Source: Botryococcus braunii
Lineage: Eukaryota; Chlorophyta; Trebouxiophyceae
DNA length: 64,000 nucleotides
Reading direction: 5' to 3'
NCBI GenBank assembly: GCA_002005505.1
Contig: KV908548.1
Span: forward strand, 28,501-92,500
The position numbers and the translations under genes were made by a program. Below, piece after piece: positions 20,957 through 47,234 of this stretch. The notes beneath the pieces are model-generated. The model was not told where the DNA came from. It did not search any database and saw only the letters and a program-made list of their open reading frames with translations. Position 1 is the first letter of the stretch, and every line of letters starts with the position of its first letter.

Positions 20957-20958
20957 TT

Positions 20959-21682
20959 TGTACAATTCTGAACTCGGCGTTTCCTGTATGTCCCGGCACG
21001 AAGGGTGTTTAGCTCGGTTGGATCTCTTGCTGTGTGTCGAGAAGCAAGCAGAGTCCGACTGTGAATCGACACTTGAGGCAACTGATCAGAGATAAGCACC
21101 CGGAGTGCTCTTTCAGTCCCAAACAAGTCATTACATTGCTTCTTGCTTTCTCTCACTACTCAGGAATTCAAACTACCTATTCTACATATCGCCAGATAGT
21201 TCGCATTACCGTTGTTCGATGAGTCAAGCATTAGCAATATTCTAATACTCTTATCTAGACCTCTTCCTAATCAACCGTTCCTGATTGTCGTCTCATATTA
21301 CTGCACTTTACCTGTATGTCCCGGCACGAAGGGTGTTTAGCTCGGTTGGATCTCTTGCTGTGTGTCGAGAAGCAAGCAGAGTCCGACTGTGAATAGACAC
21401 TTCAGGCAACTGATCAGAGATAAGCACCCGGAGTGCTCTTTCAGTCCCAAACAAGTGTCTAGCCCTTCATGCCGGCTGCATATATCCTTCTTGCAAGACC
21501 GCGTAGAATTACCTCACGCTATTTAATCTAAGTGGAATTAGTCTAGATCAATTATGGCAGAACTCTAGAGTTCTGCCATTCATTACTCAACCTACTAATT
21601 GTTCTCTGTGATCCTTCAGGAAAAACAGGCCACTATTACTCTTCTGAGGGAAAGTCACTCATGTTCTTTTACTATTATAACA
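20959..21682 (-). repeat. A-type 3' LTR of element 2
   Basis: 724 bp, the same length as the A-type LTR at 39907-40630. It contains the doubled ~145-bp module. The minus-strand start is TGTTATAATAG and the end is AATTGTACA. Confidence 0.93.
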
Positions 21683-23160
21683 CTTCCCCTTGACTTTTCC
21701 TAACAAAAACTTGGCCAGTCCCAGAGCCTCACGATGCCCCTGAAATACTTGCCTTGTTAAAGGCTTTGTGAATATATCCGCCACATTCCTCGCAGAGGGA
21801 ACGTATTTCACATCAACTTGACCTAGTGCAATAGCCTCCCGCGCAAAGTGGAAGCTGATAGCAATATGCTTAGTGTGCTTAGAGAACACTGGATTTCTGA
21901 GATGATTGATGCATCCCTGATTATCACAGTGAATCTTGACAATCCATGGGGATATCCCAATTTCCTCAAGAAACCCCTTCATCCAATTGGCCTCTTTGAC
22001 AGCTGCACTTGCCGCCATGAACTCAGCTTCTACAGTGGATGTGGCAACTGCAGACTGCTTCTTGCTCCCCCAAACTACAGCTCCACCAAACACTCGGATG
22101 ACATACCCTGTAGTGGAAAACCGATGATCTTGGTCCCCACCATAATCTGCATCAACAAAACCCTCTAGCTCTGTGTCCTTCCCTCCAAGGACCAAAACGA
22201 GATCTCTGGTTGCCTTAAGATATTTCAACACTCTCATGGCTTCATTCCAGTGAGCAGTAGTAGGGGTATTCCTGTACCTGGAAAGCACTCCCACAGCCTG
22301 TGAAATATCAGGCCTAGTGGTATTTGCAATGTACAACAGTGACCCAACCAGTTCACAGTACCTGTGTCCTGGTGGCAGAGGGCTCCCAGCACCAATGCTG
22401 TCACTGTTGTCCTTGGACATAGGCCTCTGTGTGGCTACAAAATCTTTAGTCATAGGGGTGTCAAGTCCCACAGACTCCAGATCCAGCCCAAATTTCTCAA
22501 CCAGTGCATCAATCTTAGGGATGCAGCTCAAAGAAATTAGCCCTTTATCCCTATCTCTCATCACTTGGCAGCCCAAAAAATCTTTTACCTCTCCCAAATC
22601 ATGAATGGTGAACTCTTGCTTGAGCAAACCCTTCACTCTCTCAATCTCTCCCATGCCGTTGGAAACTATCAGCAGATCATCAACATAAATCAACACAAAT
22701 GACTTTCCTCCATCTACTGAACACTTCACATATACACCAGCATCACTCTTGCACACTTCATAGCCCATGGTGTGCAGCTTCTCATTAAGGGTCTTATGCC
22801 ATGCCCTTGGTGCTTGCTTCAGGCCATACAATGCCTTCTTCAAGCGACACACTGTGTTACCATCCCCATTTTCAAACCCAGGAGGTTGTGTGACATAAAC
22901 CTCCTCCTCTAATTCTCCATTTAGGAAAGCAGTCTTGACATCCACCTGGTGAATTTCAAGACCTTCTTGTGCAGCAACTGACAGTAAAGCTCTCCTAGAT
23001 CCATAACTGCTAGTTGGTGCAAAGACCTCCATGACATCTACTCCAGGAATTTGCCTGCATCCTTGAGCCACCAGCCTAGCCTTGAACCTCAGCACATTGC
23101 CATGGGCATCCATTTTCACTGAAAAAATCCAATGAACTGGAATTACTTTATGGCCACGAG
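21659..23160 (-). pseudogene. Element 2 reverse transcriptase and RNase H
   Basis: An open frame covers the RT from HWIFSVKMDAHG through YVDDLLIV, and RNase H (VDADYGGDQDHRF, HCDNQGC, ADIFTKPL). It is cut off from the upstream frame by a TGA at about 23162 where element 3 has Arg. The normal stop after AKF has become TTA, so the frame runs through the purine tract and 24 bases into the LTR, adding about 15 residues. Catalytic motifs are retained. Confidence 0.9.
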
Positions 23161-23161
23161 G

Positions 23162-26100
23162 TCAAGGGATATACTCCATGACCTCGTGGGCATCTAAAGA
23201 ATTCTGCTCCTCTTGCATAGCAGCCTTCCAATATTCCCACTGTGGGGACTTCTGTGCCTCCTTCAAACTGGAAGGCACACTAATTTTCCCAAACCGCACC
23301 CCTGTGTGCTTCCCCTGATCTGGCTTACTCTCACTCTCTCTTTCACCCACTACTCTTTCGCTGAATGTCGCCGCACTGCACACGGGTGCAGTTTCTGATT
23401 TTCCTCGCTGCTCTCTCTCTCTCTCTGAGACTCACAGTTTGCCCTTTCGAGCTTACTGCTTCGCACCCTCACATCATCCTCCCAGACACAGGTACCTCTC
23501 GGAAAGCTCTTGTAATCAGGCAAATTAGCACACTGTCCAAGCTTCCGATTCACCTCCTCATTCACACTCTTACATGACTGACGCTGTTCAGTCTCATCAG
23601 AGCTCTCACAGGCAATTGAACCACTCTGCACAGCTTGGGCACTTGGTCTGTCTTAGTGTTGTGCCCATGTCTCTCTCTCTCTCTGTCTGCTCCCCACCAA
23701 ACATGAGCGCTGGGGCGCAGGCCTAGCAGCACGCTCACAAGCATCGCCCAAACTGGTGTGGCTGGCACCACATTGTCCTTGGGCATCACAGATAGAACTC
23801 ACGTCTCTAACATTTCCCTCAGGCACTGAACAGGTCCCACCCATGCATCTCAGCTCACTCGGACCATCTTCAGTCTGTTTAGAGACTGTCCCCCTCTCAT
23901 CACTCACAATTGAAACAAGTCTCTCTAGCACCTGACCCAAATCCTGCACTTCCCCTGGTCCCTGTGACTTAATGTCACCTTCAGTCAGCCCCTCTCTCTC
24001 ACAACTCTCTCCCTTATCCTGTGCCAGCAAGATTTCTCGAGCAGCAGCTCGTTGCTCATAGCGTTGAGCCCGAGACAGTCCATCCAGAGGTGGAATTGCA
24101 GTCGCAGGAGGAGTATTCCGGAGTGACTGCTGTGCTCGCTCCAGGGTCCGTTGATGCTGCCCACTATCAGAGCTTCCTCGCGCAAGTTGCTGAAGTGTTT
24201 CCAGTACTCCGGACTGGTCCAGATCCAGCCGAAGTGGTTCCTCACTTGGTCCAGGAGCATTTTCTGGAGTGCCCTTCTCTTGGGAAGGCTTTCCCTGACT
24301 TGCAGGCTCGGTTGCAGCCTGATCAGGGGGTCCTGGGAGGGTGCTGTCAGGTCTGCCGCTGGGGCAGGGAGCGCTGATAGCCTGATTCCGAGTGCTGCAC
24401 TGAGGTGAAGGAGCTGCCGGGTAGCTGAGGTGCTGTTGGGCTGGCAAACCTTCAGGATATGAGAACTGATGTGGCTGGTCAGGGTGAATGGACATTCCCA
24501 CCCGAGAGGCTCCTCGGATGTGTTCCACAAATTGGACATCTCTGCTCTCTCTCCAGACTCCCCCTCCCAGATAAATACGATATGCCTTGGACACCGGGGA
24601 ATAACCAGTGAACATGCTAGGCACAGCCTTTGGTGCAAATGCCCCCCTCTGTTGATCAGGCACATGCACAAATGCCAGGCATCCCCAAGTACGAAGAAGT
24701 GATACGTCTGGTTTGTATCCCATGAATAATTCACAGGGAGTGAGAGGCCTGCCTGTACTGGGTCCCATGTTCAGGAGGATGCAGGCTGTCTCTAGGGCCT
24801 CTTTCCACATGACTGGACTGGCACCTGCAAAGTTGAGGAGGGTTCTGGTTCGCTCCTTCAAGGTCCTGTTGGCTCGCTCTGCAATCCCGTTCTGCTGAGG
24901 AGTATAGGGTGCAGACATCTCCAGCTTAGTGCCCTGAGACACACAGAACTCCTTGAATCTGGAATTAATAAATTCTGTGCCTCTGTCACACCGAATGCAC
25001 TTGACAGTGGTCCCTCTTTCTGTCTGCCAAAATAGAATCAGGTCCCGGATAACTGAGGCAATGACATCCTTTGACTTTACTGGTAGGACAGCTTTCCATC
25101 CAGATGCCTCATCAGTTACAGTCACCCAAAAACGTTCCCCAGAGATTGCTGCTGGTGAAATGGGGCCCACAGTGTCAATATGAATTCTGTCAAGGGGGTT
25201 CACTGCGGGTCTAGAGCTTTCGCCAAAGGAAGGACGAGCATGCTTCCCCTCAATGCAAGCTTCACAATATTTGGGGCAATTCTCACAGGGGGAAAGGTGA
25301 GTGTCCAGGCCAGTGACCAGTTGCTCAGTGGACAGGCGGTGCATCCATGGTTCTCCTGGGTGTCCCATTCGACTGTGCCACAAAAAACGTTTGGCACAGT
25401 CATGCTTCTGGCTTCTGGCCTGTCTCTTCTTCAAAGCAGCTGTTACTGGACAAGGAGACTTATTTGCAGTCACTGGCAGACAGTTGTGGATATAGTACAG
25501 GCCATTCTCTGAGTGCACAGACATTTTCCACCCATTTGGACCAGACACAGCTGTAAATGCTCCCACTCTGTCTGTGACGAAGCATGCTCCATCACGAAGC
25601 GCAGCAGATACTGACAGGATATTAGTTGTGGCCGAGGGAACACACTGAACATGGTGAAGCCACAGTGGAATGTGCTGAGGGGAAATGAGACACACTGATC
25701 CAGTTGCAATAATTCCTCCTGTGGCATCTGATGTGGCTAGATGGAGAGGGATAGGGTTGGCATGTATGGTAGGGGCATACAGCAGGTCCAGACTGTTAAC
25801 CAAATGGACTGAGGCTCCACTATCCACTAGCCAGGACTGTTTGGACTGTTTGTTGTGAGCAGCATCCAGCACATTATAGGACACCACGTATGGCGTACCT
25901 TCAGAGGGAGGTGAGGGAGGACCAGGAGGTGGGTGCAGCAGTGGGAAAGCTCCAGCTCCAGGGAAAGCATGCTGTACCGAGGGGGGAGGCTGAGGGACTC
26001 CAGGGAATTGTCCTGGAGGCCACATGCCAGCCAGCTGCTGTACTGCTGCCACCACGTTCCTCTGGGTCTCTGCATCTCTCTGTCTCTTGCGGCAGTCTCT

Positions 26101-26937
26101 CCAAAAGTGCCCCTTTTTGTGGCAATAGTTGCAAGTCCCCCGTACCTCCGATTTTACTTCTGAATCAGCTGGCGGCTTAGGCTGTGGCACTGCACAGGCA
26201 GCTGGAACTGGAACTGCAGCAGGTGCAGGTGGTTGGGCCAGCATGACCACAACAAGCTGGTCTCCATCATCGTTGTAACCAGAAGCTTCAGCTGTAGTGG
26301 TGATGAGGTCTGCCACCTGATCTTGTGGGTGGGCAACTGCAGTGGGAAGAAGTCCGGGAGGATTGGCCGCAGCTGGCAATCCCTGCACTATCTGAGTGGC
26401 CACATGACCATCCAGAAGGTCATGTCCATTGCGCTTCAGGCAGCCCTTGAGATTGATCATTCTGGAGACATATTGGGATATTGTTTCACCACGCTTCATG
26501 CCTTTGGCCATCTCCTTCAGCCAGTCTGCATTGGCTTGAGTGTTATACCCCCCCACAAACTTTCTGCAGATGAAAACATATGCATCATATGCTGATGGCT
26601 TGGCTGACAATTCCCCCAACCATTCTTCCGGAACTGATTCATAGATTAACAGCATAGCTACAGCATTGTGGATGGATCCAGGCATAGCTGATTGGATGGC
26701 AGGCAGGGAGCCTTTAGCACTATTTGCAGCAGTGAATGCATGATCCCACACCACGAAGTTCTGACCCTGTCTCAGTAGCTTGATGTGTACCATTACTTGG
26801 GTGGCTATGACCTTGGGAAGGATATCTCCCTCACCCCTTGACGTGCTGGGCGTGCACGGACTTCGCGTGGGAGATGAAGTAGACTCTTCCTCTGCTGACC
26901 GCGGTTCTTCACTGGTGCTGGCGCCCTTCTTAGCCAT
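23162..26937 (-). pseudogene. Element 2 gag-protease-integrase with premature stops
   Basis: From an ATG at 26937 an open frame of 1094 codons runs through gag, zinc knuckle CNYCHKKGHFWRDC, protease WLVDSGASVHLV and integrase (HSRMGHPGEPW, DTVGPISPAAI, CDRGTEF, PQQNGIAERANR). It stops at 23653 where a C-to-T change turns the CAA of element 3 into TAA. The same frame continues to about 23350. From there the conserved pre-RT segment (KHTGVRFGKISVPSSL) is in a different frame. The element cannot make a complete Pol. Confidence 0.92.
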
Positions 26938-26955
26938 GCTGCTGAACTCTGGTTA

Positions 26956-27480
26956 TCAGTCGTGTGGTTCGGAGATCTTTGAGTCTCCGTCTTCGTCCTC
27001 GCTTTCTGGTTCTGTGCACCACTCCTCAGGGCTGTACCCCTTTATGCTTCCCAATAAGGAGATAAGGAAGTCTTCGTCAAACGAAGCAAGAGCCGTCTCC
27101 ACTGCGGTGTAGGCCGCCTTTTCTGCCCAGAATTCCTCCTTGTTTGGGTCTCCTATCTGCTGCAGGTGCCTTTCGAATAGTGCCCGCGTGACGAAGCCTG
27201 GGTCACCGTTGATAAAGGAACACTCCCAGGCTGTAACTTTGTAGGCAGGGTAGACTGGGAATCTTTGTTTGAACCACTGTGGCGGGTCGAGTCTGCCCTG
27301 TCCGTATGCGCGGCTGACAAAATCCTTTACAATAAATGCTCGTTCTTCAGGTGTTCTCGGTCCAGTCTCTCCACCTGCTCTCCTCAGACTGTCATAAGTA
27401 GGTGGTGGTGGAGGTGGTTGTTGTCTCAAATGTCTTGTAGAGCCTGTCGCCATACGGCCGCTCTGTCTTGTTCGTCCCAT
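26956..27480 (-). CDS. ORF0 of element 2 (174 aa)
   Basis: Open from the ATG at 27480 (MGRTRQSGRMATG) to a stop 18 bases before the gag ATG. Features shared with the other ORF0 copies: a basic, proline-rich N-terminus (QPPPPPPTYD), RTPEERAFIVKDFV, PPQWFKQRFPVYPAYK, SFINGDPGFVTRALFERH, and an acidic end (ESEDEDGDSK). The frame is intact although gag-pol in the same element is broken. Function unknown. Confidence 0.78.
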   Translation of the reverse strand: MGRTRQSGRMATGSTRHLRQQPPPPPPTYDSLRRAGGETGPRTPEERAFIVKDFVSRAYGQGRLDPPQWFKQRFPVYPAYKVTAWECSFINGDPGFVTRALFERHLQQIGDPNKEEFWAEKAAYTAVETALASFDEDFLISLLGSIKGYSPEEWCTEPESEDEDGDSKISEPHD

Positions 27481-27530
27481 CGTAGCTCCTTGTGCTCGGA
27501 TTCCACATCTCAAGAGCTCAGCATAGAGTT

Positions 27531-27545
27531 GGTGGGCCCATAACC
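27531..27545 (-). other. Half-tRNA primer-binding site of element 2
   Basis: GGTGGGCCCATAACC on the plus strand. On the minus strand this is the same 15-base site as in element 1, directly next to the LTR. Confidence 0.85.
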
Positions 27546-28276
27546 TGTACAATTCTGAACTCGGCGTTTCCTGTATGTCCCGGCACGAAGGGTGTTTAGT
27601 CCGGCGACACTCTTGTTGTATGTCGGTTAACAAGCACTGGCGACTGTGAGTGAGATGACTTGACTGGCAACAGTTGAACGACAAACACCCGAAGTGCTTT
27701 TGATGTCCCAATCAAGTCTTACAATGCTTATTGCTCTCTCTCATCACTCAGCAATTCAAACTACTCTATCTACGAAGTTACTGATAGTCTGCATTACCGA
27801 TGTCCGATGAGCTAAAACAGTAGCACCTTTCTAATACACATTCTCTAGACCCTTTCCTAATCCATTGTTCTTGTGCACGTACTGTCATGACAACAGTTTA
27901 CCTGTATGACCCGGCACGAGGGTGTTTAGTCTGGCGACACTCTTGTTGTATGTCGGTTAACAAGCAGTGGCGACTGTGAGTGAGATGACTTGACTGGCAA
28001 CAGTTGAACGACAAACACCCGAAGTACTTTTGATGTCCCAATCAAGTGCCTCATCCCTTCGAGCCAGGAGCATATAGCCTTTCGAGCAAACCGTGTCTGA
28101 TTACTTCATCCTCCCTCATCAGCGTAAAATTGGTCTAGATTGGTTCTGGCAGAACTCCTAGGTTCTGCCACCTATAACTCATTCTAATGAGTGTTCTCAC
28201 TGGTAATTGGAGCTGATCTGGCCACCATTACTCTTCTGAGGGAAAGGCACCAAAATGTTCTTTCACTATTATAACA
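27546..28276 (-). repeat. Hybrid 5' LTR of element 2 (B-type body, A-type U5 tail)
   Basis: 731 bp. From 27600 rightward it matches the B-type LTR at 46505-47234. From 27546 to 27578 it carries the A-type bases (AA at 27558-27559, T at 27578), and AA at 27588-27589 is also A-type. The switch point is one side of the inversion crossover. Confidence 0.88.
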
Positions 28277-28625
28277 GGAAGGTACTTGCTTTCAGCCGTC
28301 AGGAGCTTATCCGTGTGTAGATGCTCATTGACAGATCAACATGTAACGGAACTGGTTTGGAAAGAGCTTGGGCACATAATGATGCCAGTCTTGTTCATGC
28401 AGTTGCATGTGTCTAAAGAGAAGACCGTCGCCAAGGACTGTAGCTGGAGAGGCACGAACTTACGACCTGTCTGCTTGCTTACAGGATACGCCACTGCCCA
28501 TAACCTTTTACAGGGTTGTGGGCCCACGCCCTTCCAGCTGAGCCAAGGGCAGACAGGAGTGCATGGCATCATCGGATGCATCTGTACTGGGTTTTCCACG
28601 GACTCGCCTGACGGCACGAACAAGT
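28277..28625 (+). mobile_element. 3' part of a family C copia LTR, primer site and internal stub
   Basis: 28277-28512 is the U5-side half of a copia LTR. Its 133-bp module (28352-28484) ends CTTACAG followed by GATACGCC. The LTR ends TTTTACA and is followed by GGGTTGTGGGCCCAC, the half-tRNA site with one change. The internal region stops at about 28625. The U3-side half of the same LTR is at 47240-47704 in opposite orientation, because copia element B inserted into it before the inversion. Confidence 0.8.
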
Positions 28626-28639
28626 AAAAAACGTCTGGG

Positions 28640-29745
28640 GTTAAGAAATGGGACAGTATGGGACGGGGATGGGGCCCCGTCCCATATGGTCCATTGGACC
28701 TCGACAGGGATGCGGCTCGTCCCATCCCCGTCAAGTATTGGCCGCCAAATTGGGACAAAGATGGGTGAGCCCCATCCCGGTCGAGGTCCTATGGACCGTA
28801 TGTGACGGGTACCTGTGTGTCAATATTTGACCACCCCAGATGGAACCTGAACTGATAAGCCCCATCCCTGTCGAGGTCCCATGGGCCGGGTTGGTCGGGT
28901 GCGTTTGTGTCAATTATGGGCCGCCTTGGATGGGACCTGAACTGATGAGCCCCATTCGGGCCGTATTGGACGGGTTCCTGTGTGTCAATTTTGGACCGCC
29001 TTGCATAGGACCAGAACTAAGAAGCCCCATCCGGGTCGAGGTCCCATGGGCCGTATGGGTCGGCTACATGTGTGTCAATATTGGATAGCCCCATATCCGA
29101 CTTGAAATGATGAGCCCCATCCCGGTCAAGGTCCCATGGGCCGGGTTGGTCGGGTGCGTTTGTGTCAATTATGGGCCGCCTTGGATGGGACCTGAACTGA
29201 TGAGCCCCATTCGGGTCGAGGTTCCATGGGCCGTACTGGACAGGTACGTGTGTGTCAATTTTAAACTGCCTTGCATGGGACCTGAACCAAGAAGCCCCAT
29301 CCGGGTCGAGGTCCCATGGGCCGTATTGGCCGGGTACATGTGTGTCAATATTGGACCGCCCCAGATGGTACCTGAATTGAGGAGCCCCATCCCGGTCGAG
29401 GTCCCATGGGCCGTACTGGTCGGGTACCTGTGTGTCAGTTTTGGACCACCTCGGTTGGGACCCAAATTGACGAGCCTCATCCCGGTTGAGGTTCTATGGG
29501 CCGGATTGGTCGGGTACATTTGTGGTAGTTATGGGCCGCCTTGGATGGGATGTGAATTGACGAGCCCCATCTCTGTCGAGGTTCTATGGGCCGGATCGGA
29601 CGGCTACATTTCCTGTCAGTTTTGGACAGGCTTGGATGGGACAGGGCTTGGATGGGACAGGCTTAGATGGAACAGCAATTGACGAGCCCCATTCTGGTCG
29701 ACTTTTCACGGGCCCGAGACGAACGGGAATGTTGATTCTTAACCC
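28640..29745 (+). repeat. 90-bp minisatellite, about 11 units
   Basis: Units centred on GAGCCCCATC, GGTCGAGG and CCATGGGCC recur at about 28858, 28948, 29020, 29112, 29202, 29292, 29381, 29472 and 29562, mostly 90-91 bp apart. Because 90 is a multiple of 3, one plus-strand frame stays open for 191 codons as a 30-residue repeat (SPI-x-VEVPWA, GPP-x-MGPEL). I regard that as a by-product, not a gene. The head of the array shares a motif with the repeat at 3.13 kb. Confidence 0.85.
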
Positions 29746-30885
29746 ATGAATTCTACGGTCCTTTTTATGTCGTGTTTGTTGCTACATAGTCCAGATATAT
29801 GTTGACTGCTTATACAGTCATAAAACAAGAGCGAGCAAGGAGTGTTTGAAAGGGCAGCCGCACAATGAATCACATTTGCATCGTCATAGATTACATGTTG
29901 CAACAAGTGTGTTGCAATGAAAATGTTGTCGTGCTTGTTAACGACGCATTGTGAAGGTTTGGTGTTCCCTCCCGTTTGTCCCATTAAACTGAACAGTCGG
30001 CTTCCGTGATATCCAATACAAAAAATAGTTGAAAATAATCTCTGGTGTCCATGCGACATAACGCTTTCTACATTGAGATGCAATGCTATTACCATGCAAC
30101 AACTACTAGTACTTACACTATATAGTATATATATAATGCCAAATATGTTCTTGGCATATACACCAGAGCAAAACTCGAACGAAAACCAATGACCACGACT
30201 GAGCACAAATTGCTAGACTCCTAGCAGTTCTATACTTGATGAACAATGGCGTATACGCCTTTTCCCGTGAGCTGCCCTACGGAGAATTCTTTCGAAAGGT
30301 CTTGTTGCCCTTGGTAAGATGGATGTGAGCCGTAGCTCAATTGCCACATTCTGATTGGTGGTCGAGCAAGGGATTGAAGAGTGAATTCATACCTATGACA
30401 GTGCCCCGTTGTACAGAATCTACCTAAGAAGATAATGAAGGCGTTACCACAAAACCCAAGCTCAGATAAACAGCGATCCGGATCGGTTCGATGAGAATCG
30501 CTTTTCAACTGTCGTGGCGCCGGCGTGGTGAAAAACCTGGAAAGGATGGGGTGGTGAAAAAAACCTGCTAGAGGTAGGCTATCTTGTTTATTGTATGCAA
30601 GGTGTCAATAGTTCATTCTGCTGATCCAGAGCAGGATCCTCGAAGAATAATAATAATTGTCTTAGAGGACATCCTGATTTTTTTCATGGCGTCCAAGTTA
30701 AAAGCTTGGGTCCATAGATGGTCCCTTGCATTATTGTCTGACTTCTGAAATGGAGTCCCTACGAACCATAACAATGACTTAAAAAGCGTGCTCTGTGAAG
30801 TTGAAGCCGGGCATGCAACTGAGATTGAATGCACAATGGCAATGGGAAGCAGGTCACCTTAAGGAAGCTTCCATTGTCGATGTTA
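29746..30885. other. Unassigned sequence downstream of host gene 2 (in inverted orientation)
   Basis: Before the inversion this lay just 3' of host gene 2, which is transcribed on the current minus strand here. No convincing coding exon was found. An open minus frame at 29739-30206 has no recognisable motifs. Confidence 0.4.
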
Positions 30886-30915
30886 TCAAACGTTTAGGTC
30901 TCTCGGCACTACGGG
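30886..30915 (-). CDS. Host gene 2, 3' end of the last coding exon
   Basis: Joined across the composite insertion, the frame from 37390 continues here and ends at TGA (30886-30888), about ten codons after the insertion point. Bases 30911-30915 (ACGGG) are the left copy of the target duplication. Confidence 0.5.
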   Translation of the reverse strand, partial: PVVPRDLNV

Positions 30916-31499
30916 TGTAACGACTATCGGGCGATCTCCGATAGTCGGAGCCCTACTTAACCGCTGAGCAATGCCGATAAACACCGATCGCACCTTTTAG
31001 GCACGTGGCACACCCGGCCTAGTTGGTAGGATTCCTCCGAGGGACCTCGCAGTCCCGGGTACGAATCCCGGTCATTACATTTGGTATCTGCGAGCAGGAA
31101 ACCCATTTTCCTCTCGCATTGCGATCACGCGGTGCGACGCGCCTGCCCACAAGGGGGATGGGATTCCAGGCCGTAACATCCGGACGCAATCTTCCAACGG
31201 ACCCTCTGTAACGGACAGTCCTTATCCATGGGCTCACTCACCAACCACCACCCACGTGTAGGGCACGTGGACCATCCACCAATTCTCCGTTCCCAGGCAC
31301 AATCGAGGACGATTGTGGTCTAAGAGGGGGAGAAATGTAACGACTATCGGGCGATGCCCGATAGTCGGAGCCCTACTTAACCGCTGAGCAATGCCGATAA
31401 ACACCGATCGTACCTTTTAGGCACGTGGCACACCCGGCCTAGTTGGTAGGATTCCTCCGAGGGACCTCGCAGTCCCGGGTACGAATCCCGGTCGTTACA
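30916..31499 (+). mobile_element. TRIM alpha, 584 bp, part of a composite insertion
   Basis: Two 164-bp LTRs (30916-31079 and 31336-31499; start TGTAACGACTATCG, end TTACA) flank 256 bp of non-coding sequence. A primer site TGGTATC-GCGA follows the left LTR and a purine tract AAGAGGGGGAGAAA precedes the right LTR. Unusually, the right LTR is followed by another primer site (TGGTATCGGCGACC) rather than by the target duplication. The left flank ACGGG has its partner at 37390-37394, beyond gypsy beta. Confidence 0.85.
31011..31079 (+). promoter_or_regulatory. tRNA-like segment in the alpha LTR (second copy 31431-31499)
   Basis: GGCCTAGTTGG (31016-31026) resembles a tRNA D-arm/A box. GGTACGAATCC (31058-31068) differs from a B box at one base. 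The latter sits in a perfect T-arm: stem CCGGG/CCCGG (31055-31059 and 31067-31071) with a 7-base loop TACGAAT. The segment forms the U5 end of the LTR, directly before the primer site. Confidence 0.6.
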
Positions 31500-35686: not shown

Positions 35687-37165
35687 TCAGCGTTTAGCAG
35701 GTGGCAAGACAACGTTAGGATGCGGGCAAGACGCGGTGTCGTGCTCGTGGACGCCGCAATTGATGCAGCGCCCGTCAGAGTTGCGCCTGTGGAAGAGGGC
35801 TTCAGCGAGGCCCTTCTTGGCCCACTTGGCCACCTCCTCAGCGAGTGCCTTGGGAGGCAGGTTGAGGGCAGGCTTCTTGGCAGGCTTGGTGGCCAAGGGT
35901 GGCGCGCGGCGCTTGTCCGCACGTGAACCACCTTCCTTGCGGTGGTCAGTGTGAGAGCCCCCTGCAAGGACAGTCAGAAGATCCTCAGCTTCCTTTGCAG
36001 CCTTGACTACCACGTCAAGGTGCTCGAACTCATCCTTGGCCATGGCATCCCTCATGACCAACTGGTAGACAGCTGGCTTGAGACAATTGCGAAAAACTGA
36101 GCAAGCCTCTGGCCCCGAGATGGGGTGTTGAACTGCCTCTACCATGATTGCCCTGAAAGCTGCATGATAGGAAGCAACAGAATGAATGTGTCGTAAGCGT
36201 GCGAGACGAACTCGAACAGTGTGTTCGACCTTACCCTCCACAAACTGAGCAAGCATTTCAGTTTAGAAGGTGGAAAAGTCCCTAGGATCACCTCCCCGCT
36301 GAGTGAGAGACTTTTTCATTAAGGCCCATTGCTCGGCTGCACGTCCCGACAAGCAAAGTGAAGCATTTGCGACTAAGTCACCTGGTGCAATGTGCATGAG
36401 AGAGGCATAGCCGTCAAATTGCTCAAACCAGGTGGTGACCTTGGTACCTTCCTTGGACCCATCGAATTTGGGTGGTGGAACACGAATAGGCTTGGAAGGG
36501 AAGGAACTCCGATTGATTTGGTCGTAATCGAGAGGGAATTCCGGATTGAGAGGAGGCTCGGTAGTCGGGGTAAGCGGAGGCGTACCCTTGAGCAACAAGT
36601 CGCGGAGCTCCGCGAGGGAGTCCTTCATGGATCGGACGTCGCCATCGACTACCGTAAGCCGGGCATTGGTTTCTTCACGATGGGCTTCAAGCGCCACCGT
36701 GAGGTCCCCTGCGTAGGAGGGAATTGGCCCCTCCAAGTCACGCAACAGAAACTTGTAATCCCAATAAGACTTCGTTGCGGACTGGAGGTCCCTTATGGCA
36801 GTTTGATAGGCGGCAAACGCTGTGTTTGCGCCAATGGCCGTGGGTGCGACCGTGTAGGAGCTCGCGTGAGCAGCCAGCCAGGAGGCGTGGCGCTGACGGA
36901 GAGAGGCAGTGGCATCTGAGAGTTTTTCCTGAACATCAGATATGACAACAGAAAGATCATCATAGGTTTCGTATTCCTGCACGCACAACCAAAAAGCCGC
37001 AGACGAACTCGTTCCCGCAACCACAGGCACACGGAATTCCTTACGAAGAAAATCAGGTACAGTCGCGAGAGTTGATGTAGGCAGATTTTCCGATTTCGTG
37101 AAAGATGGCTCGTTCGTCAAGATAAATTCGATTGTAGACTCGCGAGGCAAAACGAGCTCGGCCAT
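35687..37165 (-). pseudogene. Gypsy beta gag, one in-frame stop
   Basis: ATG at 37165 (MAELVLPRESTIEF). The frame is open to a TAA at 36263 and continues in frame to 35687. It encodes a retrotransposon gag core (PPPKFDGSKEGTKVTTWFEQ, then GRAAEQWALMKK) and a CCHC-type knuckle (CINCGVHEHDTASC). Without the TAA the gag would be about 490 residues. Confidence 0.9.
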
Positions 37166-37389
37166 AGTGCAGCACGGACAAAGTACAGAGAATAGATTTT
37201 CGCCGATACCAAAAACAAATGTAATGATCTAGGAAATTCACGAAGACAAAGGCTAGATGCAAGGTCTAAGACAAAGGCTCGTTTGAGAATGACCTCACAC
37301 ATGTGCTTACCAAGTCGTATGCACCCTCGTGGTCGAGGACCACGTGAGACCCATATCCGACGGGTGGACGTATCCGGAAGTACGTTACA

Positions 37390-37514
37390 ACGGGTGCCCT
37401 TGACAACATCCCATCATCTGCCCAGGCCTGTATTTTTTCCTTCATCATTCTCTTAGCCTGGTCTATACCGTGCTCGCTTGTGGGCAGTGTTTTCCCTGAA
37501 AAGATTGTCTCCAA
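37390..37514 (-). CDS. Host gene 2, last coding exon, interrupted by the composite insertion
   Basis: Acceptor TTTACAG ends at 37515. The exon starts LETIFSGKTLPTSEHG and reads to AWADDGMLSRAPV at the insertion. The right target-duplication copy ACGGG is 37390-37394. Codons resume at 30910. Phase 0 with the preceding exon. Confidence 0.65.
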
Positions 37515-37752
37515 CTGTAAAGACAACACGTGTTAGTACAATCTTGATGCACACTGTCTTTATATCTTGCAAGATTTAAGAAGACAATTGTTCGGTGTAT
37601 GTTGAAACTCGAGTGAGCTCATGACCCTCCTTCTGTAACAGTGTAATATCAATCACGTGTCTCTTGTATCAATAATGTATATGATTTAGCTTGCATCATT
37701 GACCATTTGTTGCATTTGACCTTAAGCAATTCTTCAGATGGAATGTCCTTAC

Positions 37753-38118
37753 CAGAAGTTCAAAATATGACACCTGAGAGGCATACAAGGACTTGACATT
37801 CCTTGCTTCTTTTTTTATCTCATGTTTTGGTACATCTCCTGCAACCCTGTTCGAAGGGTCCTGAAGAAATTGGTTGTAGGCTGTTACGAGCGCCAACCTG
37901 TAGCGATTCCCGGATCCAAAAACCTGGTCAGGTCGCCCGTTACTCATGTGGTGACGATAGCCGTGATCCCTCAGCAGCTGGGTAGCCTTTGCCTTTGCAT
38001 CCCTGGTGTTTAGGAGGTATCCTTGCGGGCTTATGAGATCAGGCCAACCCGTGTGCAGGCCCTTTTTAATACCTCTGTTAATGTTGTTAGTGCGCAGTGC
38101 GCCCAGGATCTTCATCAC
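37753..38118 (-). CDS. Host gene 2, exon moved to the minus strand by inversion
   Basis: 122 codons in phase 0 from VMKILGALRTNN to SYFELL, donor CTG|GTAAGG at 37753/37752. The acceptor is weak (ATGAAG|GTG) because a gypsy element inserted 14 bases upstream, but the phase fits the exon ending at 18942 (EDEVQ). Content includes HTGWPDLISPQGYLL and RYRLALVTAYNQFLQDP. The family is not recognised. Confidence 0.7.
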
Positions 38119-38434
38119 CTTCATGCAATATCATATGTGTAACGGTCTCCTCGTATTGCTGTAGTCATAGCTTCCGCTTGTGACATGTGGGGATTCTACT
38201 CGTTACCCGTTACAAGTGCTCCACCGGCTCTTGGCGGGATATTCCTAGCTGGCTCCTATGTACCTCCTATCGGGGGGTACTCGCCCGAGCCTATGGAGGG
38301 AAGTAGGGCGCCATGGTATGGCATTGGGCATGGATTACTGACTCAGAGAGTAATCTTACTTGTAACGAGCTCCGTGTCTCAACTATTATTCCCTTTCTCT
38401 TCCCTTGCATTGCTGAGTACTACAAGTGGTATCG

Positions 38435-38672
38435 GCCGAACAATGAAAATCACAAGGGACCAATCTACACATCCTCTGCCGAACAATGAAAATCACAAGG
38501 GACCAATCTACACATCCTCGTGAGACGGTCTACCACCACCAAAAGGGCATTATGACCATCATTCGTGGGTGGTAGGCAAGTGATAAAATCAAATGAGAGT
38601 GAATTCCAGGGCTTATCTGGGATTGGAAGAGGCCGGAGTAGGCCTTTTGGGCCGGCTGTGGCGGGTTTGTAC
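38435..38672. repeat. 43-bp tandem duplication and inverted copy of an integrase segment
   Basis: A 43-bp block at 38435-38477 is repeated at 38478-38520. From 38478 to about 38672 the sequence is the near-exact reverse complement of about 39600-39793 (integrase, NSLSFDFITCLPPTNDG). The element therefore carries a fold-back in place of its gag and RT. Confidence 0.8.
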
Positions 38673-39906
38673 AGGAATTGTGTGCCACCATATATGCGCT
38701 GAAAGCTTGGAGACATTACCTTGAAGGTTGTGACGGTCTTACTATTATCACAGATCATCATCCAAATACTTTCTTTCAAGGCACTCCTGTTCTGAGCAGG
38801 AGGCAAGCAAGGTGGTATGAAACTCTGCAAAGGTTCCACTTCAGCTGGAAGTACGAGCCTGGACACACAAATGTGGCTGATCCCTTGTCAAGATGCTCTA
38901 ACCTTTTGAATACTGTTGCGGAGCACAGGCAACACATTCTCGCGGCGTTTACTCGCGCACAGGCCCGAGCTGCGGATCTCGATCACGCAACGCTTTCGGG
39001 ACAACAGAGTGGTCCGGTTACTTCCGCGCCATTTCAGAACACCATCTTATTTCAAGATAAGTCTATTTCTCATTCGAAACCGAACTTACCTGTAACGGTA
39101 CCCGGTTGTGCGAGTCAGCTGCAGTCTAACGACCTGCAAGTTCAGTCCCACCCCACAACGGTAGAATGTGAAGTTTTTTCAAGTGATTTAGGCTTCAGTA
39201 TACCAAATGAGTTAAACCAACACCTTTCGGGGAAATTCCGTTCCCACAGCATACATTTTCCAAGTGAGCTGCAACTTCCAGGCCCACCCCTGCTTGACAA
39301 ACTTAAAAGGGCTTATCAGAAAGACCCTAAGTTCTCGATGACCTCTACAACTGATAAATTGAAGTTTCATGATGGATTTTGGTGGAAGACGGTGAAGCAA
39401 GGGCACCAACGCATCGTGGTACCCTGTGACGCTGAAGTGAAGTGTGGGCTCATCGCAGAATTTCATGACACACCTTCATATGGGCACATGGGAAGTAAGA
39501 GGACTTTGGAAGTTCTACAGCGCCATTTTACATGGCCAGGCATGGTTGGGGACGTCAAACGTTTCATTTCCAGCTGTGACAGCTGCCAACGCAACAAACC
39601 CGACACAGCCGGCCCAAAAGGCCTACTCCGGCCTCTTCCAATCCCAGATAAGCCCTGGAATTCACTCTCATTTGATTTTATCACTTGCCTACCACCCACG
39701 AATGATGGTCATAATGCCCTTTTGGTAGTGGTAGACCGTCTCACCAAGATGTGTAGATTGGTCCCTTGTGATTTTCATTGTTCGGCAGAGGATGTAGCGC
39801 GCCTCCTCTCTACTGCTGTGTTCAGCATCTTTGGGGTACCCGAAACACTGATTTCTGATAGGGACCCTCGTTTCACATCCCAGTGGTTTCAAACCTGGTG
39901 TAAATC
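38672..39906 (+). pseudogene. Gypsy gamma RNase H and integrase, truncated by copia A
   Basis: Starts within RNase H (TIYALKAWRHYLEG, DPLSRC), then the integrase zinc site (HDTPSYGH, CDSCQRNK) and catalytic core (SFDFITCLPP, LISDRDPRF). It ends after FQTWCKS at the copia LTR. The next residues are encoded at 20956 on the minus strand. Confidence 0.9.
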
Positions 39907-40630
39907 TGTTATAATAGTAAAAGAACATGAGTGACTTTCCCTCAGAAGAGTAATAGTGGCCTGTTTTTCCTGAAGGATCACAGAGAACAATTAGTAGGTT
40001 GAGTAATGAATGGCAGAACTCTAGAGTTCTGCCATAATTGATCTAGACTAATTCCACTTAGATTAAACAGCGTGAGGTAATTCTACGCGGTCTTGCAAGA
40101 AGGATATATGCAGCCGGCATGAAGGGCTAGACACTTGTTTGGGACTGAAAGAGCACTCCGGGTGCTTATCTCTGATCAGTTGCCTCAAGTGTCTATTCAC
40201 AGTCGGACTCTGCTTGCTTCTCGACACACAGCAAGAGATCCAACCGAGCTAAACACCCTTCGTGCCGGGACATACAGGTAAAGTGCAGTAATATGAGACG
40301 ACACTCAGGAACGGTTGATTAGGAAGAGGTCTAGATAAGAGTATTAGAATATTGCTAATGCTTGACTCATCGAACAACGGTAATGCGAACTATCTGGCGA
40401 TATGTAGAATAGGTAGTTTGAATTCCTGAGTAGTGAGAGAAAGCAAGAAGCAATGTAATGACTTGTTTGGGACTGAAAGAGCACTCCGGGTGCTTATCTC
40501 TGATCAGTTGCCTCAAGTGTTTATTCACAGTCGGACTCTGCTTGCTTCTCGACACACAGCAAGAGATCCAACCGAGCTAAACACCCTTCGTGCCGGGTCA
40601 TACAGGAAACGCCGAGCTCAGAATTGTACA
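39907..40630 (+). repeat. Hybrid 5' LTR of element 3
   Basis: Module copies at 40133-40277 (followed by GTAAAG) and 40461-40605 (followed by GAAACG), 145 bp each. The TATA-like GGATATATG at 40102-40110 is about 28 bp upstream of copy 1. From 40598 to the end the bases are B type (T at 40598); before 40576 they are A type. Confidence 0.9.
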
Positions 40631-40695
40631 GGTTATGGGCCCACCAACTCTATGCTGAGCTCTTGAGATGTGGAATCCGAGCACAAGGAGCTACG

Positions 40696-41224
40696 ATGGG
40701 ACGAACAAGACAGAGCGGCCGTATGGCGACAGGCTATACGAGACATTTGAGACCACTAACCACCACCACCGCCACCTACTTATGACAGTCTGAGGAGAGC
40801 AGGTGGAGAGACTGGACCGAGAACACCTGAAGAACGAGCATTTATTGTAAAGGATTTTGTCAGCCGCGCATACGGACAGGGCAGACTCGACCCGCCACAG
40901 TGGTTCAAACAAAGATTCCCAGTCTACCCTGCCTACAAAGTTAGAGCCTGGGCGTGTTCTTTTATCAACGGTGACCCAGGCTTCGTCACGCGGGCACTAT
41001 TCGAAAGGCACCTGCAGCAGATCGGAGACCCAAACAAGGAGGAATTCTGGGCAGAAAAGGCGGTCTACACCGCAGTGGAGACGGCTCTTGCTTCGTTTGA
41101 CGAAGACTTCCTTATCTCCTTATTGGGAAGCATAAAGGGGTACAGCCCTGAGGAGTGGTGCACAGAACCAGAAAGCGAGGACGAAGACGGAGACTCAAAG
41201 ATCTCCAAACCACACGACGGATAA
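40696..41224 (+). pseudogene. ORF0 of element 3, frameshifted
   Basis: Starts MGRTRQSGRMATG like element 2 and then loses the frame in the Pro-rich stretch (about 40.76 kb). The rest of the conserved protein (TPEERAFIVKDFV, PPQWFKQRFPVYPAYK, ESEDEDGDSK) continues in another frame to TAA at 41222-41224, 15 bases before the gag ATG. Confidence 0.8.
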
Positions 41225-41239
41225 CCAGAGGTCAGCAGC

Positions 41240-44200
41240 ATGGCTAAGAAGGGCGCCAGCACCAGTGAAGAACCGCAGTCAGCAGAGGAAGAGTCTACTT
41301 CATCTCCCACACGAAGTCCGTGCACGCCCAGCACGTCAAGGGGTGAGGGAGATATCCTTCCCAAGGTCATAGCCACCCAAGTAAAGGTACACATCAAGCT
41401 ACTGAGACAAGGTCAGAACTTCGTGGTGTGGGATCATGCATTCACTGCTGCAAATAGTGCTAAAGGCTCACTGCCTGCCATTAAATCAGCTATGCCTGGG
41501 ACCATCCACAATGCTGCAGCTATGCTGTTATTCAATGAATCAGTTCCGGAAGAATGGTTGGGGGAATTGTCAGCCAAGCCATCAGCATATGATGCATATG
41601 TTTTCATCTGCAGAAAGTTTGTGGGGGGGTATAACACTCAAGCCAATGCAGACTGGCTAAAGGAGATGGCCAAAGGCATGAAGCGCGGTGAAACAATATC
41701 CCAATATGTCTCCAGAATGATCAATCTCAAGGGCTGCCTGAAGCGCAATAAACATGACCTTCTGGATGGTCATGTGGCCACTCAGATAGTGCAGGGATTG
41801 CCAGCTGCGGCCAATCCTCCCGGACTGCTTCCCACTGCAGTTGCCCACCCACTGGATCAGCTGGCAGACCTCATCACCACTACAGCTGAAGCTTCTGGTT
41901 ACAACGATGATGGAGGCCAGCCTGCTGTGGTTATGCTGGCTCAACCACCTGCTCCTGCTGCAGTTCCAGTTCCAGCTACCAGTGCAGTGCCACAGCCTAA
42001 GCCGTCAGCTGACTCAGAAGTAAAACCAGAGGTACGGGGGACGTGCAACTATTGCCACAAAAAGGGGCACTTCTGGAGAGACTGCCGCAAGAGACAGAGA
42101 GATGCAGAGACCCAGAGGAACGTGGTGGCAGCAGTACAGCAGCTGGCTGGCATGTGGCCTCCAGGAGAATTCCCTGGAGTTCCTCAGCCTCCTCCTCGGT
42201 ACAGCATGCTTTCCCTGGAGCTGGAGCTTTCCCACTGCTGCACCCACCACCTGGTCCTCCCTCACCTCCCTCTGAAGGTATGCCATACGTGGTGTCCTAT
42301 AATGTGCTGGATGCTGCTCACAACAAACAGTCCAAACATTCCTGGCTAGTGGATAGTGGAGCCTCAGTCCATTTGGTTAACAGTCTGGATCTGCTGCATG
42401 CCCCTACCATACATGCCAACCCTGTCCCTCTCCATCTAGCCACATCAGATGCCACAGGAGGAATTATTGCAACTGGATCAGTGTGTCTTATTTCCCCTCA
42501 GCACATTCCACTGTGGCTTCACCAGGTTCAGTGTGTTCCTTTTGCCACAACTAATATCCTGTCAGTATCTGCTGCGCTTCGTGATGGAGCATGCTTTGTC
42601 ACAGACAGAGTGGGAGCATTTACAGCTGTATCTGGTCCAAATGGGTGGAAAATGTCTGTGCACTAAGAGAATGGCCTGTACTATATCCACAACTGTCTGC
42701 CAGTGACTGCAAATAAGTCTCCCTGTCCAATAACAGCTGCTTTGAAGAAGAGACAGGCCAGAAGCCAGAAGCATGACTGTGCCAAACGTTTCTTGTGGCA
42801 CAGTCGAATGGGACACCCAGGAGAACCATGGATGCACCGCCTGTCCACTGAGCAACTGGTCACTGGCCTGGACACTCACCTTTCCCCTTGTGAAAATTGC
42901 CCCAAATATTGTGAAGCTTGCATTGAGGGGAAGCATGCTCGTCCTCCCTTTGGTGAAAGCTCTAGACCCGCAGTGAAACCCCTTGACAGAATCCATATTG
43001 ACACTGTGGGCCCCATTTCACCAGCAGCAATCTCTGGGGAACGCTTTTGGGTGACTGTAGCTGATGAGGCATCTGGATGGAAAGCTGTCCTACCAGTAAA
43101 GTCAAAGGATGTCATTGCCTCAGTTGTCCGGGACCTGATTTTATTTTGGCAGACAGAAAGAGGGACCACTGTCAAGTGCATTCGGTGTGACAGAGGCACA
43201 GAATTTATTAATTCCAGATTCAAGGAGTTCTGTGCGTCTCAGGGCACTAAGCTGGAGATGTCTGCACCCTATACTCCTCAGCAGAACGGGATGGCAGAGC
43301 GAGCCAACAGGACCTTGAAGGAGCGAACCAGAACCCTCCTCAACTTTGCAGGTGCCAGTCCAGTCATGTGGAAAGAGGCCCTAGAAACAGCCTGCATCCT
43401 CCTGAACATGGGACCCAATACAGGCAGGCCTCTCACTCCCTGTGAATTATTCATGGGATACAAACCAGACGTATCACTTCTTCGTACTTGGGGATGCCTG
43501 GCGTTTGTGCATGTGCCTGATCAGCAGAGGGGGTATTTGCACCAAAGGCTGTGCCTGGCATGTTCACTGGTTATTCCCCAGTGTCCAAGGCATATCGTAT
43601 TTATCTGGGAGGGGGAGTCTGGAGAGAGAGCAGAGATGTCCAATTTGTGGAACACATCCGAGGAGCCTCTCGGGTGGGGATGTCCATTCTCCCTGACCAG
43701 CCACTGCAGTTCTCATATCCTGAAGGTTTGCCAGCCCAACAGCACCTCAGCAACCCGGCAGCTCCTCCACCACAGTGCAGCACTCGGAATCAGGCTGTCA
43801 GCGCTCCCTGCCCCAGCAACAGACCTGACAGCACCCCCTGATCAGGCTGCAACCGAGCCTGCACGGCAGGGGAAGCCTTCCCAAGACGAGGGCACTCCAG
43901 AAAATGTTCCTGGACCAAGTGAGGAACCACTTCGGCTGGATCTGGACCAGTCCGGGGTACTGGAAACACTTCAGCAACTTGCGCGAGGAAGCTCTGACAG
44001 TGGGCAGCATCAACGGACCTTGGAGCGAGCACAGCAGTCACTCCGGAATACTCCTCCCGCAACTGCAATTCCTCCTCTGGATGGACTGTCTCGGGCTCAA
44101 CGCTATGAGCAACGAGCTGCTGCTCGAGAAATCCTGCTGGCACAGGATAGGGGAGAGAGTTGTGAGAGAGAGGGGCGGACTGAAGGTGACATTAAGTCAC

Positions 44201-44823
44201 CGGGACCAGGGGAAGTGCAGGATTTGGGTAAGGTGCAAGAGAGACCTGTTTCAATTGTGAGTGAAGAGAGGGGGACAGTCTCTGAACAGACTGAAGATGG
44301 TCCAAGTGAGCTGAGATGCATGGGTGGGACCTGTTCAGTACCTGAGGGAAATGTTAGAGATGTGAGTTCTATCTGTGATGCCCAAGGACAATGTGGTGCC
44401 AGCCACACAAGAGTGGGCTATGTTTGTGAGCGTGCTGCTGGGCCTGCGCCCCGGCGCTCATGTTTGGTGGGGAGCAGACAGAGAGAGAGAGAGACATGGG
44501 CACAACACCAAGACAGACCAAGTGCCCAAGCTGAGCAGAGTGGTTCAATTGCCTGTGAGAGCTCTGACGAGACTGGAAAACGTCAGTCATGTAAGAGTGT
44601 GAATGAGGAGGTGAATCGGAAGCTTGGACAGTGTGCGAATTTGCCCAATTACAAGAGCTTTTCGAGAGGTACCTGTGTCTGGGAGGATGATGTGAGGGTG
44701 CGAAGCAGTAAGCTTGAAAGGGCAAACTGTGAGTCTCAGAGAGAGAGAGAGAGCAGCGAGGAAAATCAGAATCCTCGCAAACTGCACCAATGTGCAGTAC
44801 GGCGACAGTCAGTGGAAGAGTAG
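41240..44823 (+). pseudogene. Element 3 gag-protease-integrase, several frameshifts
   Basis: gag from ATG 41240 with CNYCHKKGHFWRDC. A frame change near 42.19 kb precedes protease and integrase (WLVDSGASVHLV; HSRMGHPGEPW; DTVGPISPAAI; CDRGTEF; PQQNGMAERANR). In-frame TAA at 42664 where element 2 has TCA/Ser. One-base loss at a G run (about 43.53 kb), restored near 43.84 kb. The downstream spacer keeps GTCVWEDDVRV. Confidence 0.9.
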
Positions 44824-46486
44824 TGGGTGAGAAAGAGAATGAGAGTAGCACTGCTGAGAGCCAGGGAGAAAAGGGGAAGCATACTGGAGTGCGTTTCAGC
44901 AAGATTAGTGTGCCCTCAAGCTTGAGAGAGGCACAGCAGTCTCCCCAGTTGGAATACTGGAAGGCTGCCATGCAGGAAGAGCAAAATTCTTTGGATGCCC
45001 ACGAGGTGATGGAGTATGTCCCCAGGCCTCGTGGTCATAAACTTATTCCAGTTCACTGGATTTTCTCAGTGAAAATGGATGCTCATGGTAATGTGCTGAG
45101 GTTCAAGGCAAGGTTGGTTGCCCAGGGATGTAGGCAAATCCTGGTGTAGATGTCATGGAGGTATTTGCACCAACCAGCAGTTATGGGTCTAGGAGAGCAT
45201 TGCTTTCAGTGGCTGCACAAGAGGGTCTTGAGATCCACCAAGTGGATGTCAAGACAGCATTCTTGAATGGTGAATTGGAAGAGGAGGTGTATGTCACACA
45301 ACCTCCTGGATTTGAGAATGGGGATGGCAACACTGTGTGTCGCTTGAAGAAGGCCTTATATGGGCTGAAGCAAGCACCCAGGGCATGGCATAAGACCCTG
45401 AATGAGAAGCTGCATACCATGGGATATGAGGTATGTAAGAGTGATGCTGGTGTCTATGTTAAGTTCTCAGTAGATGGAGGAAAGTCTTTTGTGTTAATAT
45501 ATGTTGATGATCTGTTGATATTGTCCAAGGGCATGGGAGAGATTGAGAGAGTGAAGGGATTGCTCAAGCAGGAATTCACCATTCATGATTTGGGAGAGGT
45601 GAAGGATTTCTTGAACTGCCAAGTGATGAGAGATAGGGATAAAGGCCTCATTTCATTGAGTTGTATCCCTAAAATTGATGCACTGGTCGAGAAATTTGGG
45701 CTGGATCTGGAGTCTTTGGGGCCTGACACTCCAATGACTAAAGATTTTGTTGCCACCCAGAGGCCTATGTCTAAAGACAACAGTGACAGTATTGGTGCTG
45801 GGAGCATTTTGCCTCCAGGACACAGATACTGTGAGCTGGTTGGATCTCTGCTGTATATTGCCAATACCACCAGGCCTGATATAGCTCAAGCTGTGGGGGT
45901 ACTCTCTCGTTATAGAATTAATCCTACCACAGCACACTGGAATGAAGCCATCAGAGTGCTGAAATATCTTAAGGGAACGAGAGAGCTGGCTCTGATTCTT
46001 GGAGGGAAGGACACAGAGTTAGAGGGTTTTGTAGATGCTGATTATGGTGGTGATCAAGATTATCGCTTCTCCACTACCGGTTACGTCATCCGTGTGTTTG
46101 GGGGGGCTGTAGTTTGGGGAAGCAAGAAGCAGTCTGCAGTGGCCACTTCCACTGTAGAAGCTGAATTCATGGCGGCAAGTGCAGCTATCAAGGAGGCTAA
46201 TTGGGTGAAGGGGTTCCTTGAAGAAATTGGCATTTCTCCGTGGACAGTCAAGATTCACTGTGATAATCAGGGATGTATCAATCATCTCAGAAATCCAGTG
46301 TTCTCAAAACACACTAAGCATATTGCAATCAGCTTCCACTTTGCTCGTGAAGCTATTGCATTGGGACAGGTGGATGTGAAGTACGTTCCCTCAGCCAGGA
46401 ATGAAGCAGACATCTTCACCAAGCCTTTAACAAGGCAGGTATTTCAGGGACATCGTGAGGCTCTGGGTTTGGCCAAGTTTTTGTGA
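44790..46486 (+). pseudogene. Element 3 reverse transcriptase and RNase H, one frameshift
   Basis: From CSTATVSGRVVG through the pre-RT segment (KHTGVRFSKISVPSSL) to RNase H and ADIFTKPL. A one-base deletion near 45.14 kb splits the frame after QGCRQI. YVDDLLIL and HCDNQGC are intact. The normal stop after AKFL is kept. Confidence 0.9.
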
Positions 46487-46504
46487 GGAAAAGGTAAGGG
46501 GAAG

Positions 46505-47234
46505 TGTTATAATAGTGAAAGAACATTTTGGTGCCTTTCCCTCAGAAGAGTAATGGTGGCCAGATCAGCTCCAATTACCAGTGAGAACACTCATTAAAAT
46601 GAGTAATAGGTGGCAGAACCTAGGAGTTCTGCCAGAACCAATCTAGACCAATTTTACGCTGATGAGGGAGGATGAGGTAATCAGACACGGTTTGCTCGAA
46701 AGGCTATATGCTCCTGGCTCGAAGGGATGAGGCACTTGATTGGGACATCAAAAGCACTTCGGGTGTTTGTCGTTCAACTGTTGCCAGTCAAGTCATCTCA
46801 CTCACAGTCGCCACTGCTTGTTAACCGACATACAACAAAAGTGTCGCCGGACTAAACACCCTCGTGCCGGGTCATACAGGTAAACTGTTGTCATGACATT
46901 ACGTGCACAAGAACAATGGATTAGGAAAGGGTCTAGAGAATGTGTATTAGAAAGGTGCTACTGTTTTAGCTCATCGGACATCGGTAATGCAGACTATCAG
47001 TAACTTCGTAGATAGAGTAGTTTGAATTGCTGAGTGATGAGAGAGAGCAATAAGCATTGTAAGACTTGATTGGGACATCAAAAGCACTTCGGGTGTTTGT
47101 CGTTCAACTGTTGCCAGTCAAGTCATCTCACTCACAGTCGCCACTGCTTGTTAACCGACATACAACAAGGGTGTCGCCGGACTAAACACCCTCGTGCCGG
47201 GTCATACAGGAAACGCCGAGCTCAGAATTGTACA
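46505..47234 (+). repeat. B-type 3' LTR of element 3
   Basis: Module copies 46734-46879 (followed by GTAAAC) and 47064-47209 (followed by GAAACG), 146 bp each. TATA-like GGCTATATG lies about 28 bp upstream of copy 1. Confidence 0.92.

Follow-up and report, generated by a model that had tools for sequence, protein, structure and literature searches.

A probable ~13-kb inversion between two oppositely oriented copia elements in Botryococcus braunii

We analysed a 64,000-nucleotide stretch of the genome of the green alga Botryococcus braunii (assembly GCA_002005505.1, contig KV908548.1, positions 28,501 to 92,500 of the forward strand), which is referred to below as the window and numbered from its first base. 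Two copia elements lie in it in opposite orientation, E2 at 20959-28276 and E3 at 39907-47234, and each combines long terminal repeats (LTRs) of two diverged types, A and B. It is very probable that the ~13.0-kb segment at 27590-40597 was inverted by homologous recombination between two inverted copia insertions, which we will call the A and the B insertion. The window holds chimeric LTRs and exchanged flanks, copies of the un-inverted empty sites are present elsewhere in the same genome, and a gypsy element split by the A insertion has matching LTRs and a matching target duplication in its two separated parts. Several marks of an inversion by ectopic recombination are found here, namely homologous copies in opposite orientation, exchanged target site duplications and reciprocal chimeras.

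Two chimeric elements with exchanged flanks

Both elements have the domain order gag_pre-integrs, rve and then RVT_2, and they are classed as Ty1/copia from the position of the integrase upstream of the RVT_2 reverse transcriptase. Along the window their LTRs measure 724, 731, 724 and 730 bp. In E2, on the minus strand, the 3' LTR (20959-21682) is A-type and, judging from its flanks and the LTR alignment, would mark the left-hand outer boundary of the original A insertion. The internal region (21683-27545, with gag-pre-integrase, integrase and RVT_2) is attributed to the original A element, with an A-family signal that is confined to the 3' part of pol and is also present in some elements with B-type LTRs, and the 5' LTR (27546-28276) is B-type in its outer part (27600-28276) and A-type in its U5 tail (27546-27589). 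E3, on the plus strand, begins with a 5' LTR (39907-40630) that is A-type in its outer part (39907-40587) and B-type from 40598 onward, followed by an internal region (40631-46504) attributed to the original B element and by a B-type 3' LTR (46505-47234), probably the right-hand outer boundary of the original B insertion.

The two LTRs of one element, an A-type set against a B-type repeat, are ~73% identical (527/718 in E2 and 528/717 in E3), whereas the exchanged partners agree at 717/724 positions (99.0%; E2 3' LTR with E3 5' LTR) and 719/730 positions (98.5%; E2 5' LTR with E3 3' LTR). The outer 5-bp flanks likewise pair solely across the elements. GATTT at 20954-20958 and its inverted second copy AAATC at 39902-39906 form the target duplication of the A insertion, and GGAAG at 28277-28281, now inverted, and CTTCC at 47235-47239 form that of the B insertion; by our own arithmetic two such 5-mer matches would occur by chance about once in 10^6. 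When the element ends and flanks were re-read, the coordinates, LTR lengths and 5-bp flanks given in a preliminary description of the window all proved correct, and its claim that each element has one A-type and one B-type LTR is borne out by the identities above. That description also had the two insertions exchanging halves; an exchange is seen, but only ~680 bp changed places, the outer part of each 5' LTR.

Aligned as wholes and in opposite orientation, E2 and E3 are 89% identical. Identity is ~96% between the U5 tail and alignment column 4700, 86% in columns 4801-6600 and lowest, at 70%, in the 684 columns that cover the outer part of the 5' LTR. The LTRs have the termini TGTTATAA..TTGTACA, of the TG..CA type. 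By our own reading GGTTATGGGCCC, which adjoins the 5' LTR, is the putative primer site and AAGGGGAAG, which precedes the 3' LTR, the putative purine tract. The candidate primer site GGTTATGGGCCCACC lies at 40631-40645, with its reverse complement at 27531-27545; it resembles what we take to be the anticodon arm of the initiator methionine transfer RNA (tRNA-Met), presumably pointing to half-tRNA priming as in Drosophila copia. No tRNA gene was found in the window, and nothing in the window matched Rfam at gathering score. Each of the four focal LTRs also contains two copies of a ~150 bp block, so that in every one of them a diverged repeat of the U5 tail lies upstream of the tail itself. Another copia-like element, at 5270-12688, is 70-76% similar to E2 and E3, has end repeats that are 99.6% identical and contains an open frame of 1802 codons.

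Position of the exchange in the U5 tail

The four focal LTRs were aligned with 42 distinct rows (11 A, 31 B) obtained from 57 further stretches of the same genome. A column was regarded as family-diagnostic if its state differed between the families and each family was uniform there at 90% or more, and there are 163 such columns. At these the E2 5' LTR is B at 160, unassigned at one and A at the last two, and the E3 5' LTR is A at 159, unassigned at two and B at two, of which one is the last column and the other is also B in the E2 3' LTR. The preliminary description had called for this kind of alignment and table of diagnostic sites as a check on its type switch, and the switch is seen in the U5 tail of both 5' LTRs.

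Within the tail, a T at 27589/40587 is present in 10/10 A rows and absent from 31/31 B rows, and the marker at 27578/40598 is A in 9/10 A rows and T in 30/31 B rows. At 27559 both LTRs of E2 have T, a base seen in none of the ten A rows and 30 B rows with which they were compared, all but one of these 40 having C. No row examined outside E2 shares this T, and the 5' LTR tail of E2 was therefore most likely part of the insertion to which the E2 3' LTR belongs. Within each element the two 33-base tails are identical, and they differ at two sites from the tail of the exchanged partner.

An interval of ~23 bp had been proposed for the crossover. Its location in the U5 tail stands, and its width can be reduced with the help of the one-base indel at 27589/40587. 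Both products have the A state there, and the alignment thus supports a probable switch within 10 bases in each element. The A marker and the B marker that bound this interval are at 27589 and 27600 in E2 and at 40587 and 40598 in E3. The B marker at 27600, which was part of the same proposal, does separate the focal types but varies among B LTRs, and the nearest B marker to pass the 90% rule is at 27601, which is uniform. The A state of the indel in both products had been noted before, together with the suggestion of heteroduplex repair, and we can confirm the state itself. It is a single marker, uniform in both families, and its A state on both sides may reflect repair of a short heteroduplex, of which it is the expected result, or an independent one-base change.

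An exact-pattern search of the 176-Mb assembly for a B-type head with an A-type tail gave one match, at E2, and an exact-pattern search of the assembly for a B-type head without the extra T and with A at 27578 gave none. A search with A-type heads for T at the 27578 column gave 21 pattern matches, seven of which have a GAGC head and the T, one of these being E3 itself; the other six lie on C548 (one, A family), C48 (two) and C299 (three). One C48 place and one C299 place were considered as A-family LTRs and rejected, as they are 84-85% alike to the LTR at 48348, which belongs to a third family, against 78-80% to A. On C548, the A-family 5' LTR L036 (G000:C548:56637-57362) has an A-type head followed by the TT and T tail like that of the E3 5' LTR, either through another exchange or by plain substitution.

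Internal regions were typed by family with 14 other loci, several of them partial. As a confirmation of the crossover these internal markers were set aside, since from the leader to ~4 kb the other elements with A and B LTRs match E2 and E3 about equally, and it is because internal markers do not separate the families that we base the U5 position on the tail markers. E2-like 3' pol is found in B-LTR elements on C316, C640 and C207, and B-LTR elements have two kinds of 3' pol, E2-like (L044, L045 and L051) and E3-like (L048 and L050). Because elements with B LTRs carry both kinds, LTR and pol types appear to have been reshuffled among families, and this is part of the reason why internal markers leave the families unseparated.

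Flank order before the inversion

The A-site query was an 895-base joint of the E2 left flank and the reverse complement of the E3 left flank, with one copy of the target duplication, and the B-site query joined the reverse complement of the E2 right flank to the E3 right flank, the first 95 bases lying outside the repeat. Both were searched for in the B. braunii assembly itself (176 Mb), with the best 40 of 148 candidates scored for A and the best 40 of 1835 for B. The A joint is crossed by 22 of the 41 matches listed, 16 at 94-97% identity and six at 71-72%, and the other 19 comprise the window's own pieces (four), the second parts of two interrupted copies (two) and short matches (13); among the matches listed, the window's own are the only ones at 100% to the A flanks. 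The B joint is crossed by all 41 matches listed, at 98%. When the joints are read base by base, no base is lost or gained in 8/8 A-site and 8/8 B-site loci. The present-day joints are crossed by more than one base in 0/80 and 0/79 of the matches listed, a weak control in that 40 candidates were scored, the copies listed were of the B-site repeat and the lists included no gypsy copy but the window's own. This host repeat of the B site is now in two parts, one carried inside the inversion (28277-28631, minus strand) and the other outside it (47235-47704, plus strand).

The A insertion went into a truncated gypsy element, which had played no part in forming the inversion hypothesis. One gypsy LTR (19143-19431, minus strand) has a CATAT duplication at 19138-19142 and is followed by the part of the element left of the A insertion (19432-20958, minus strand), with the SH3/chromo end of the integrase at 20053-20832 on the minus strand. 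The part with RNase H and the start of the integrase (38672-39906, plus strand) is separated from 20958 by the inversion, and its frame (38678-39934, plus strand) runs into the E3 LTR. The other LTR (38138-38424, plus strand), now inverted, has its CATAT copy at 38133-38137, which reads ATATG on the plus strand. These LTRs are 98.6% identical over 290 columns and today are inverted to each other, unlike those of an intact insertion; in the un-inverted order they are direct repeats with CATAT on the outer side of each, and the integrase core becomes one frame across the joint, the farther stops in this copy being left unchanged. Taken with the gypsy evidence, the empty sites show which flanks belonged together and, as far as sequence can tell, that the un-inverted flank order would be ancestral. 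The earlier claim of an inversion with exchange between the A and B insertions thus finds support in the empty sites, in the gypsy LTRs, CATAT copies and integrase frame, and in the tail markers.

A 202-bp inverted copy (98%) of gypsy sequence, at 38469-38670 and 39594-39795, lies between the gypsy LTR and 38672. The 5' part of the gypsy element is missing at 38672, beside this copy. Elsewhere the window has minisatellite-like tandem arrays at 28766-29642, 55131-55760 and 54180-54477, the first with a unit of ~90 bp as judged from repeat offsets.

Alternative explanations, mechanism and known systems

We consider an assembly error unlikely, in which a jump from one inverted element to the other would have turned the segment round in the contig while the chromosome itself keeps the un-inverted order. 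E2 and E3 are 96% alike over ~4 kb in inverted orientation and the sequence analysed is that of the assembly, and the paralogous empty sites and gypsy LTRs fit such an error equally well. However, by our reading of the LTR alignment the parents share a run of 11 bp at the switch as defined by family markers (21 bp in the present sequences), and an overlap misjoin should favour longer runs. Identical runs of 118 and 172 bp start 20 and 174 columns farther in, and it is because the switch lies in the 11-bp run with these two close by that we hold a misjoin to be unlikely. The non-reciprocal marker at 27589/40587 and the absence of Ns from the window are also counted against it. Somewhat less likely again is a real inversion with its crossover deeper in the 96%-identical internal region and with separate changes to the U5 tails through LTR gene conversion. 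In its favour, family cannot be told from the internal markers, and short-tract gene conversion is reported for human LTRs (PMC4921805), but such a crossover needs two mirror-image conversions, one in each product, that end at the same place, whereas a single crossover accounts for all the tail states bar the indel.

That the chimeric LTRs arose by template switching during reverse transcription, with no DNA recombination at the locus, is hardly credible. Mosaic families do occur, as in the B-LTR element on C316 (L044) with its E2-like pol, but template switching cannot swap host flanks between loci, and we regard the exchanged flanks revealed by the empty sites as decisive; in addition, a copy newly made by reverse transcription has matching LTRs at its two ends. 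An inversion by aberrant transposition of a hybrid element has an equally slight probability, as excision of the ends is not how LTR retrotransposons move. The hybrid-element model was proposed for cut-and-paste transposons and predicts identical copies at the breakpoints, not chimeras (PMC2775673).

Several considerations nevertheless tell against an inversion by recombination in the U5 tail. The empty sites and the gypsy evidence would look the same under an assembly flip, and alone they cannot tell the two apart. The first ~4 kb of the internal regions, as typed here, appear to lack a clean family signal and so are neutral on the U5 position. The crossover is placed by just two family markers and one base private to E2, and an A-family LTR on C548 also has T at the 27578 column. 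Finally, without migration of the junction, the 11 bp shared by the parents would make a short crossover site.

Non-allelic homologous recombination (NAHR) between inverted copies is the simplest reading of the locus. In the model that we propose, two complete Ty1/copia elements whose LTRs had diverged, A and B, would have inserted ~13 kb apart in opposite orientation, the A element into the gypsy integrase gene and the B element into a high-copy repeat. Homologous recombination would then have swapped the outer parts of their 5' LTRs and flipped the ~13.0 kb between them, the exchange resolving in the U5 tail at the outer edge of shared homology, and one marker inside the exchange interval would have been converted to the A state in both products. 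The chemistry of homologous recombination, the migration of the junction to the heterology border and the mismatch repair of the indel are steps that we infer. The inversion must be younger than both insertions. The LTR pairs differ at 5 in 669 positions for A and 9 in 676 for B, with 98.6% identity for gypsy, and this divergence agrees with the proposed nesting of A in gypsy, though the differences are few.

The exchange site is the border at which high identity first gives way to the diverged body of the LTRs. It is possible, and we put it forward tentatively, that the border itself positioned the exchange, which would have started in the high-identity leader/gag tract, migrated outward and resolved at the 30%-diverged LTR body with 10-21 bp of heteroduplex. 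Windows more alike than the tract just inside the border make up 0.7% at 600 columns, 7% at 500, 10% at 300, 28% at 200 and 2% at 100; the tract is among the most alike parts at some scales, not all.

If the assembly is right, one genome, without any relative, holds both products of the inversion and copies of the A and B empty sites, and the gypsy, the third element involved, becomes regular once the flip is undone. The breakpoint is placed to ~10 bases per side, at the homology border. Dating of E2 or E3 as annotated from their LTR pairs would be badly wrong, as their own LTRs are 73% and the true partners 98-99% alike; that recombination between elements spoils LTR dating has been given as a general warning (PMC2672092). 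If positioning by the homology border is general, LTR families with diverging LTRs and shared leaders would favour recombination in the U5 tail, and this class of breakpoint would be predictable from one genome.

Ectopic recombination of this kind is well known, and we regard the present locus as an unusually clean example for which, from a search of the open-access literature, we claim no priority. Hughes and Coffin (2001, 2005) reportedly used human endogenous retroviruses (HERVs) as indicators of ectopic recombination, mismatched 5' and 3' LTRs and flanks revealing recombination between elements; their cases are said usually to show one product, whereas here both are seen and are complementary. 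In yeast, recombination between inverted repeats can likewise invert the intervening DNA, but the repeats were engineered in an assay in which the pathway was studied (PMC8748988). Recombination between HERV-H proviruses in humans, also NAHR between LTR elements, has crossovers narrowed by sequence variants to 8-162 bp; the outcomes described there are deletions and reciprocal duplications (PMC4195946), whereas here the copies are inverted, the outcome is an inversion and both products lie in cis. The portions consulted of PMC9674265, PMC10085805 and PMC3625200 contain no closer parallel. In Drosophila buzzatii the transposon Galileo generated inversion 2z3, which resembles our case in its opposite copies, its exchanged target duplications, the chimeric nature of both copies and a crossover bounded by diagnostic sites (141 bp in 2z3) (PMC2775673). 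It differs in that Galileo is a DNA transposon of the P superfamily and that 2z3 is a natural inversion checked against non-inverted chromosomes (PMC2775673), whereas the elements here are LTR retrotransposons, the inversion is 13 kb and the un-inverted order is drawn from copies elsewhere in one genome.

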